Assembly (NCBI GenBank): GCA_022538095.1
Contig: JAKYXN010000039.1
Span: 1 to 50,592 of the forward strand
Direction of reading: 5' to 3'
Length of the DNA: 50,592 nt
Origin: Puniceicoccaceae bacterium K14
GTDB taxonomy: Bacteria > Verrucomicrobiota > Verrucomicrobiia > Opitutales > Opitutaceae
A program made the position numbers and the translations under genes. Below, one piece after another: positions 19,810 to 22,730 of this stretch. Positions within the stretch are counted from its first letter, which is position 1. Each line of letters starts with the position of its first letter. The notes under the pieces are model-generated. The model did no database searches. It saw nothing but the letters and a program-made list of their open reading frames with translations, and was not told where the DNA came from.

Positions 19810-21306
19810 TTACAAATCCAAATCTTGTTTCTTGCTCGAATGCGTACCCAAAAATTCCTTAAGCGATCGTGCTGTTTTAGGCCCAATACCTTCAACGTTT
19901 TGTAACTCTTCGAGACTCGCTTTTTTTAGTTTTTCGAAAGAACCAAAGTGCTCGAACAGCATAGCTCGCTTTTTTGGACCTAATCCAGAAAAATCATCCA
20001 AAATGCTTTCTCGTATTCGTTTACTTCTTAGATCTGCATTATAAGTATTGGCAAACCGATGGGCCTCATCCCGAGCCCGTTGCATTAGCTGAAGACCTCC
20101 ATTCCTCAAAGGTAAACGAAGTGGCTTTCGCTCATCCGGAAAGATGATCGTTTCATGCTTCTTAGCTAAGCCAACAAGTGCAGGCGGTTCCAAATCTTGA
20201 GCAATAAATGATTTCAATGCCGACCCTACTTGCCCTAAACCTCCGTCTATAATGATAAGATCCGGAAAAGGTTTCCCTTCTCTCGCTAAGCGGCCGTACC
20301 GGCGACCGACGACCTCTTCCATTGAACGAAAATCATCGTTTCCTTCGTGATCTTTAATCTTGTAGCGACGATAGTGTTTCTTGTTAGGCAAACCATTTTC
20401 AAAATGTACCATAGATGCAACTACAAAAGTTCCTGAAATATGAGAGATGTCGAAACACTCGATGCGACGAGGTAATTCGGGCAGTTCCAATGCTTCCTGA
20501 ATTAGTTTTAGATCTTCTAAGTTATCCTTTCTCGGTAACAGTGATCTCTCAAACTTCCTATTCTTCTTCAGCGAAGATTCCAGAGCAAAAACAATGTCCC
20601 TAAGCTCTGCAGCTTTTTCAAAACGTTGTTGCATCGCCGCCTTCTGCATATCCTCTTTTAGGTCGCTGAGCCATTCCCTGGACTTTCCTTCCAAAAAACC
20701 ACACGCTTTTGCCACTCTGTCTGCATATTCGGCAGTGGTCACTGTATTGCTATGGCCATACAGTTCCGCTCGAACATCCTCATACAATAAAAACTGATCA
20801 TTTCCCAATTTTTTGGGGTTACTGTCTGAAAGCAGGATACCAAACTTGCGACGCATCTCAGCAAGCGTTTTCCGAATATGCTGAGCATGAGCAAACGGCC
20901 CGAAGTACAATGCCCCATCTTCTTTCTTAAATCGGACTAAAGTAAACCTCGGCAAATCGCGTGTGGCCTCTACTCGTACCAAGAGAAATCGTTTATCATC
21001 CGTGAAATCGGTGTTATACTTCGGCTTCCATTTTTTTATCAACTGCCCCTCGAGCAAGAGCGCTTCGGGTTCGGACTTCACCTCCATATAATCAAAATCC
21101 CTAATCATTTCCACCAAAGCTCGAATCTTGGGTTGGTGAGCAAAATTTCTCGAGGGTTGGAAGTAACTCGAAACGCGTTTCTTCAAGCTTTTCGCTTTCC
21201 CCACATATATAATGGTTCCAAGACGATCCTTCATAAGGTATACCCCAGGTTTTTGAGGAAGCCGCCTTACCTTTTCTTTTAAAATGCTAGATGCAGACGT
21301 TGGCAT
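19810..21306 (-). CDS. uvrC: UvrABC excinuclease subunit C, compact form
   Basis: UvrC makes both incisions in nucleotide excision repair. At 498 residues it is about 100 shorter than usual. The GIY-YIG nuclease (about 16-97) has PGVYLMKD, IIYVGKAKSLKKRV and the catalytic glutamate in EALLLEGQLIKK. The UvrB-interacting helical motif is at about 215-250 (QRFEKAAELRD). The RNase H-like nuclease has ECFDISHISGT, IIIDGGLGQ and RDEAHRFA. Tandem helix-hairpin-helix motifs end the protein. Two things are odd: the cysteine cluster normally found after the GIY-YIG domain is entirely missing, and the usual segment between the UVR motif and the second nuclease is absent. Confidence 0.92.
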   Translation of the reverse strand: MPTSASSILKEKVRRLPQKPGVYLMKDRLGTIIYVGKAKSLKKRVSSYFQPSRNFAHQPKIRALVEMIRDFDYMEVKSEPEALLLEGQLIKKWKPKYNTDFTDDKRFLLVRVEATRDLPRFTLVRFKKEDGALYFGPFAHAQHIRKTLAEMRRKFGILLSDSNPKKLGNDQFLLYEDVRAELYGHSNTVTTAEYADRVAKACGFLEGKSREWLSDLKEDMQKAAMQQRFEKAAELRDIVFALESSLKKNRKFERSLLPRKDNLEDLKLIQEALELPELPRRIECFDISHISGTFVVASMVHFENGLPNKKHYRRYKIKDHEGNDDFRSMEEVVGRRYGRLAREGKPFPDLIIIDGGLGQVGSALKSFIAQDLEPPALVGLAKKHETIIFPDERKPLRLPLRNGGLQLMQRARDEAHRFANTYNADLRSKRIRESILDDFSGLGPKKRAMLFEHFGSFEKLKKASLEELQNVEGIGPKTARSLKEFLGTHSSKKQDLDL

Positions 21307-21413
21307 TTCATATTTAGTGGTTATAGTTATTACGAAGATACAATTAAACTAGATCCCATTTTCCACGGAAAAAGACCCTTCGGCGACTCATCTAAGTTGC
21401 TTTTACTAACCCT

Positions 21414-22730
21414 ATGTTGCAATCCAACTTTAAGATAACTCTTATCACGATAGGAGAAGAATTATTACTTGGCCTTACTGAAAATACGCACTTGTCCTAT
21501 ATTGGCGACCAACTTCGAAGCAGAGGTATTTCGCTAACCAAGAGCCTGGTTATTTCAGATACGAGTAAGGATATTGAGAAGGATTTCTTAGAGGCTTGGG
21601 AAGAATCTGATCTCGTCATCACAACAGGTGGGCTTGGTCCAACTGTTGATGATCTTACAAAAGAATCGATAGCGACGGCTTTAAAGGAAACACTTGTTTT
21701 CGATGAGGGCATAGCTGAACAGATCAGCAGCTATTTTGTCCAAAAAAAGAAGGAAACTCCGGAGAATTCCTTAAAACAGGCTTATAAGTTCAAAGACTGT
21801 GAGATACTTCCTAACGAATTTGGAACGGCTCCTGGGTTGTATCTAAACAAAGGTGACAAGCATTTAGTTATGCTACCTGGTCCTCCTTCAGAGCTGCGTC
21901 CAATTTTTGAGACGCACGTTCTTCCTCTTCTAGAAGAATGTAGCTTACTCAACAATAAGGAAAGCTATATACAAATTCGAACAATTGGTGTTGGAGAATC
22001 AATTTTAGAAACTAAGTTAACGCCTGTATTTTCTGAATACGAAAATTTGAGCGTAGCCTTTTGCGCTCACAATGGACATGTCGATATTAGGCTGAGTTTT
22101 CCGAAGATGAGCGATGACGATCAGCTTTTGGAAGCCGCTAAAAAGTGCAAAACAGTACTCGGTCTCGATTTCCTCTGTTTTGGGCACGATTCTTTAGAAA
22201 AAGTTGTGTCCAATCTGATGAGACGAAATGGTGGGACTCTAGCGATAGCAGAAGGATGCACTGGTGGCATGCTCTCTAGCGGAATCACAGACATTCCCGG
22301 TGCCGCCAAATTTTATTTGGGCGGGCTTACCTGCTATAGCATCCAATCAAAAATCGATTTGCTACATGTGCCCGAAGACATGATACAACAACATAGCTCT
22401 ATAAGCAACGAGGTGGCAATTGCAATGGCTTCTGGGGTTGCTGAAGTGTTCGAGGCAGAGTATACACTTAGTACAACTGGGTATTCAGGACCCAAAGGAC
22501 AAGAAAATGCTGTGACCCAAGGCGTTATCTATATCGGTTTGCACACAAACCAAGGGATCTGGGCGAAGAAGCTAGAACTCGAAGGAAATAGACAGACGAT
22601 TAAAAAGAGGGTCACGCTTGAGTCACTCGACTGGCTGAGAAGAATTCTTCTAGAAATACCTGAAGACAACAGGGAGTACCTGGAACTGAGAAAAGAATCT
22701 AACGAGATTTTGGATTCCTTTTCGTCATAG
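21414..22730 (+). CDS. cinA: CinA family protein
   Basis: A 438-residue two-domain protein. The N-terminal domain (about 1-170) is MoaB/MogA-like (TIGEELLLG, TTGGLGPTVDDLT) and in this family acts as a pyrophosphatase on ADP-ribose-type nucleotides. The C-terminal domain (about 268-425) is of the PncC nicotinamide-nucleotide amidase type (GGLTCYSIQSK, GYSGPKGQ). The usual ESCTGG motif reads EGCTGG, so the serine thought to be catalytic is glycine at position 281, while the conserved lysine (K313) remains. moaA follows after 53 bases on the same strand. Confidence 0.88.
   Translation: MLQSNFKITLITIGEELLLGLTENTHLSYIGDQLRSRGISLTKSLVISDTSKDIEKDFLEAWEESDLVITTGGLGPTVDDLTKESIATALKETLVFDEGIAEQISSYFVQKKKETPENSLKQAYKFKDCEILPNEFGTAPGLYLNKGDKHLVMLPGPPSELRPIFETHVLPLLEECSLLNNKESYIQIRTIGVGESILETKLTPVFSEYENLSVAFCAHNGHVDIRLSFPKMSDDDQLLEAAKKCKTVLGLDFLCFGHDSLEKVVSNLMRRNGGTLAIAEGCTGGMLSSGITDIPGAAKFYLGGLTCYSIQSKIDLLHVPEDMIQQHSSISNEVAIAMASGVAEVFEAEYTLSTTGYSGPKGQENAVTQGVIYIGLHTNQGIWAKKLELEGNRQTIKKRVTLESLDWLRRILLEIPEDNREYLELRKESNEILDSFSS

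Follow-up and report, generated by a model that had tools for sequence, protein, structure and literature searches.

Can a UvrC protein carry out both incisions of nucleotide excision repair when two of its customary parts are gone? The uvrC gene of Puniceicoccaceae bacterium K14, located in a stretch of 50,592 nucleotides (the window, meaning the whole stretch of DNA analysed), raises this question. Orthodox UvrC, as in Escherichia coli and Bacillus subtilis and as modelled by TIGR00194, is laid out as a GIY-YIG domain, a four-cysteine segment, a UVR motif, PF22920, the PF08459 nuclease and a helix-hairpin-helix (HhH) domain. Silva 2020 reportedly described a [4Fe4S] cluster in UvrC. The window protein lacks both the four-cysteine segment and PF22920.

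On sequence evidence, the window very probably encodes a housekeeping dual-incision UvrC that works with neither PF22920 nor a [4Fe4S] cluster. UvrB would recruit this UvrC to the damage site through the UVR motif, the GIY-YIG domain would nick 3' of the lesion and the RNase H-like domain 5' of it, and the C-terminal HhH domain would serve as a DNA anchor. In Opitutales, a self-folding segment made of a beta-hairpin and a helix, with no cysteines, likely took the place of the cluster loop that directly follows the GIY-YIG domain, with UvrB binding and both active sites preserved. Ordinary packing of this replacement probably stabilises the same region of the protein. The initial annotation had proposed a reduced, metal-cluster-free excinuclease C, a description that the sequence evidence supports provided that "metal-free" refers to the four-cysteine cluster. 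UvrC nucleases need a divalent metal.

Domain organization

The gene and its parts, all on the minus strand, are as follows.

19810..21306 (-): uvrC, compact excinuclease ABC subunit C, 498 aa; open reading frame with ATG start and profile matches
21013..21249 (-): GIY-YIG 3'-incision nuclease domain, residues 20-98; PF01541 match, with Y23, Y34, K37, R44, E81 and N98, and structure match
20737..20853 (-): cysteine-free replacement of the four-cysteine (Fe-S) segment, residues 152-190; from alignments and model
20578..20670 (-): UVR (UvrB-binding) motif, residues 213-243; PF02151
20500..20577 (-): short variable linker, residues 244-269, at the site of PF22920 (UvrC_RNaseH, 116 positions) in other phyla
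20050..20499 (-): RNase H-like 5'-incision nuclease PF08459, residues 270-419, with D286, D325, D354 and H416; profile, alignment and structure match
19849..20004 (-): C-terminal HhH domain, residues 435-486; profile match

The protein belongs to the UvrC family as broadly defined, scoring 393.7 bits against the NCBIfam equivalog TIGR00194 (cut-off 285.45), and falls below the cut-offs of narrower UvrC models (for example, 387 versus 451 for NF001824). PF02151 scores 29.1 bits (cut-off 21.5), PF08459 scores 175.7 bits, and three HhH models (PF14520, PF12826 and PF00633) all exceed their cut-offs in the C-terminal domain. The order of GIY-YIG, UVR, PF08459 and HhH and the catalytic residues are thus those of orthodox UvrC, in a protein of 498 aa compared with 561-732 aa in 13 comparison rows, six of which are whole open frames with no start chosen. 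A glutamate synthase gene lies convergent to uvrC and a cinA-like gene divergent from it; no LexA-like box was recognised by eye in 21290-21430.

The 80 best of 107 relatives from named genomes include Pelagicoccus mobilis (74%) as the closest named isolate. Labels in this set are mostly Opitutales, Opitutaceae, Opitutae, Opitutia, Pelagicoccus, Opitutus, Ereboglobus and Lacunisphaera, from which the order group was taken to be Opitutales. The remaining labels are Verrucomicrobia, Verrucomicrobiota or "bacterium", apart from three metagenome-assembled genomes called Akkermansia muciniphila, apparently a loose label.

Loss of the middle domain

The stretch separating the UVR motif (end at AAELRD) from the RNase H-like nuclease (start at IECFDISH) has 44 residues in the window protein and 157-214 in the 13 UvrCs sampled outside the phylum. 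About 115 residues are therefore lacking, slightly more than the approximately 100 first suggested. The missing part corresponds to the ribonuclease H-like domain PF22920, which spans residues 251-368 of E. coli UvrC and 244-351 of B. subtilis UvrC. Profile searches found no PF22920 match in the window protein or its genome.

This absence extends across the phylum. PF08459 matches 374 of 387 genomes drawn evenly from Verrucomicrobiota, and in another sample of 387 with identical tallies (311 near-complete genomes, 198 genera) PF22920 exceeds its cut-off in none. The single sub-threshold PF22920 match in that survey falls within a stretch with four stops. Control genomes match PF22920 in 11 of 14 cases and PF08459 in 12 of 14, the difference being Thermotoga maritima. 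The linker is 42-64 residues long in 211 aligned Verrucomicrobiota UvrCs, window included. Because of the 0/387 count and these uniformly short linkers, loss of PF22920 is a trait of the phylum rather than of the species, and it probably occurred in the ancestor of the phylum.

The 211 aligned sequences are a subset of the genomes found, comprising best-scoring matches and loci from 40 genomes chosen to add families (30 of which yielded loci). A gene in two frames (L012) and one at a contig end (L017) were excluded before counting; L001 and L004 are the query itself. The 13 outside UvrCs were chosen from plasmid-collection matches and E. coli K-12, and breadth beyond the phylum rests on these. 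Alignment with the phylum and outside sets, a check proposed at the outset, bears out both losses.

Replacement of the four-cysteine segment

The initial annotation reported no UvrC cysteines at about residues 155-190, and this reading holds. The E. coli columns C154/C166/C174/C178 are occupied by S/L/E/H in the window protein, and none of the 76 order sequences has the four-cysteine motif. The cysteines do not reside in a differently placed insertion, as the whole protein has just two, C202 and C284.

With the motif defined as C-x(6-20)-C-x7-C-x3-C, it is present in 12 of the 13 outside UvrCs, the exception being Mesomycoplasma hyorhinis, in which the segment is deleted. Within the phylum, 50 of 51 UvrCs from other classes have the motif and all 51 retain four cysteines; in L057 of family f32 the second and third are closer together by two residues. 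The proportion is 64/84 in other orders of the class and 0/75 in the same order (38 of them from the same family), in addition to 0/1 for the window. The motif is also absent from all 80 named loci, whose species may overlap with the 76 order sequences. Both the cysteine loss and the PF22920 loss are common to 76/76 aligned order sequences, window included, which excludes a sequencing error in a single genome.

The segment is replaced by a conserved one rather than deleted, a refinement of the earlier reading. The order's version approximates FGILLxDAxPxxLxDGRWxLYDDxRxEIYG and is cysteine-free. Twenty cysteine-free UvrCs elsewhere in the class have segments that differ from it, approximating KFGVLTFGRGxPTERELKSSTYQVP in 14 and KYGVLVQGTGxPKxKDLKYSTYLVP in six. 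In an AlphaFold model built with 60 sequences (mean pLDDT 77.4, pTM 0.47, interdomain arrangement unsure), the order's segment is predicted to form a hairpin at residues 165-173 and a helix at 179-183, with block pLDDT of 79-86.

The replacement might instead do the cluster's structural job by using Asp, Glu or His to bind another metal, such as Zn or Mn. All 60 rows of alignment A1 (which used 59 of 77 stop-free named loci) have D161 and D177, nearly all have E181, and the usual residue at column 169 is D, against N in the window protein. However, no metal-site motif was recognised in the segment, the column of H185 also holds F, A, G and W, and the acidic residues differ in the second replacement type of the class, making a substitute metal site improbable.

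Evidence for a working nuclease

Both nuclease active sites appear intact, as originally proposed. Window residues D286, D354 and H416 align with E. coli D399, D466 and H538, and the GIY-YIG residues Y23, Y34, R44, E81 and N98 are conserved. Among 12 columns that we take to be catalytic or near-catalytic, 11 are unchanged in 76/76 order sequences, and D413 is found in 75/76. The model's nuclease domains match solved UvrC domains, with TMt of 0.83-0.86 for 1yd6 chains and 0.92 for 2nrr. In some class UvrCs outside the order (L195, L058, L213 and others), PF08459 stretches reach 741 bases versus about 450, reflecting insertions within the nuclease domain.

Relative pN/pS values from 19 order sequences are lowest in the GIY-YIG (0.147) and RNase H (0.188) domains, followed by residues 190-212 (0.290), the replacement segment (0.304), the UVR motif (0.305), the HhH domain (0.410) and the linker (0.578). 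These values serve only for ranking, because pS is about 0.8 and synonymous substitution is close to saturated. By that ranking, the replacement segment and the UVR motif are under similar constraint. The UvrB-binding motif has diverged in the group, since a search of the relative L237 with the Pfam UVR model gave no match at E up to 0.01.

The genome assembly (5.72 Mb, 97.4% complete, 358 contigs) has one PF08459 match, the window uvrC. The second uvrC or cho for which a check had been suggested was found in neither case. No second UvrC was seen in this assembly, although such a gene could be missed at that completeness and contig number. No Cho was found in it either; three other GIY-YIG loci (L002, L003 and L005) are stand-alone domains of 78-117 aa. 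The window protein is itself not Cho, scoring 38.3 bits against the Cho model NF007833 (cut-off 367) and having PF08459. Two PF08459 matches occur in a few other genomes, G333 and G391 in the 387-genome phylum survey and G333, G411, G414, G529, G549, G555 and G658 in another survey; the two in G411 are adjoining pieces of one frame.

The repair partners are present in the same genome, with UvrB scoring 1010.2 bits and a canonical UvrA 1161 bits. Besides this UvrA, a 1889-aa open frame (G000:C187:2925-8468, minus strand; L319-L321) contains tandem UvrA-like halves, scoring 915.4 bits and, for the second half with pieces joined, 921.4 bits.

The absence of two typical UvrC features could mean that the protein is degenerate or specialised and has no normal repair function, either as a remnant or as a nuclease with another use. 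We consider this very unlikely, as it is at odds with the status of the gene as the sole PF08459 gene in the assembly, the near-complete invariance of the examined columns, the low relative pN/pS of both nuclease domains, the presence of UvrA and UvrB, and the occurrence of PF08459 in nearly all phylum genomes surveyed.

Iron-sulfur proteins elsewhere in the genome

Cysteine loss in UvrC might also reflect a general avoidance of Fe-S clusters in the DNA repair of this lineage. PF10576 (EndIII_4Fe-2S, 17 positions) matches 14 of 87 order genomes and is absent from the window's genome, compared with 12 of 14 controls. Direct reading of this genome nevertheless finds the four-cysteine motif C-x6-C-x2-C-x5-C intact in MutY and four C-terminal cysteines (C-x4-C-x4-C-x2-C, unlike the MutY spacing) in an Nth-like protein, a homologue of endonuclease III (L330, G000:C325:40130-40537). 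A missing PF10576 match here is thus not a missing set of cysteines, and the unusual Nth-like spacing may explain it. The PF10576 census was consequently dropped as a sign of Fe-S avoidance. The named relatives include the anaerobic genera Opitutus and Ereboglobus as well as the marine aerobes of Pelagicoccus, which also speaks against avoidance. Lineage-wide avoidance is hence scarcely probable, with the cysteine reading limited to this genome. Since MutY and the Nth-like protein keep their four cysteines, the change is read as specific to UvrC.

History of the losses

The two losses differ in depth: PF22920 is missing across the sampled phylum, and the cysteines are missing in the order and in some other families of its class. 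In a quick tree of 142 rows, with the cysteine segment left out, the 29 sequences from the order group together as a clade (SH-aLRT 100), and the other cysteine-free sequences are interspersed among cysteine-bearing ones of their class. Mapping the four-cysteine label on this tree gives nine changes, four of them forced by starred branches; the outgroup and L057 had labels of their own.

On a tree of 64 of these rows, cysteine presence or absence changes at least three times. Grouping all cysteine-free rows into one clade is rejected, though weakly (p-AU 0.039), and grouping the cysteine-free type found outside the order into one clade is not (p-AU 0.072). Changes are read as losses because outside UvrCs carry the motif. 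At least two cysteine losses is the likelier reading rather than a proven one.

The sampled members of family f114 comprise five cysteine-free UvrCs (L083, L086, L087, L139 and L141) and one cysteine-bearing UvrC (L155). The five cysteine-free members, together with L149 and L166, share one type of cysteine-free segment and are scattered on the tree among cysteine-bearing UvrCs. Segment exchange, gene transfer or repeated loss could each account for this sharing.

Relation to known systems

The published precedent for cysteine loss is Mycoplasma UvrC, in which the four cysteines are missing as in the window protein. The portion of PMC1564403 available describes mycoplasma UvrCs with the Cys-rich region deleted, naming M. 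synoviae. The M. hyorhinis protein has the segment deleted and PF22920 kept in a small parasitic genome, whereas the window UvrC has the segment replaced and PF22920 lost in a genome of 5.7 Mb.

Cho and Cho-like proteins share with the window UvrC a GIY-YIG nuclease of the UvrC lineage. The available parts of PMC1564403, including its Table 1, give a four-cysteine (C4) region for UvrC, Cho and Cho-like types and describe Cho as having this region and lacking the RNase H-like nuclease and HhH. The window UvrC is the reverse of Cho in having the latter two domains and no C4 region. Clusterless MutY glycosylases, mentioned in the part of PMC11078426 available, are a further parallel: in that repair family, too, a conserved [4Fe4S] motif is missing from some members, although the enzyme and fold differ.

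The four cysteines are listed as part of UvrC in the accessible text of PMC3985635. The [4Fe4S] report on UvrC is cited in the passages available from PMC9426483 and PMC8837605, and Silva 2020 is given for it in the reference list of PMC11138216. The available portions of PMC7835731, PMC11377751 and PMC4007778 contain nothing on UvrC cysteine loss. A literature search of titles and the starts of abstracts among the papers listed, with most subscription papers outside its reach, gave none describing that the phylum has lost PF22920 or that the order has lost the cysteines.

A broader reading, which we regard as more probable than not, is that a minimal UvrC lacking PF22920 serves nucleotide excision repair throughout the phylum Verrucomicrobiota, and that within it unrelated cysteine-free folds have taken the place of the [4Fe4S] loop at least twice. 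If so, dual incision would require neither the iron-sulfur cluster nor the RNase H-like middle domain, and these bacteria would either manage without the proposed redox or charge-transport role of the cluster or have something else fulfil it. The role of the cluster is a recent question, so a clade with both forms is useful. With PF22920 absent from all of them, the closely related UvrCs of this clade that have or lack the cluster provide matched natural pairs for testing each part. The compact UvrC is not a new system; its value lies in having related forms with and without the cluster side by side. Among the matches listed, the solved structures matching UvrC cover a half or a single domain and never the full length, and a compact UvrC may be easier to crystallise or image whole.
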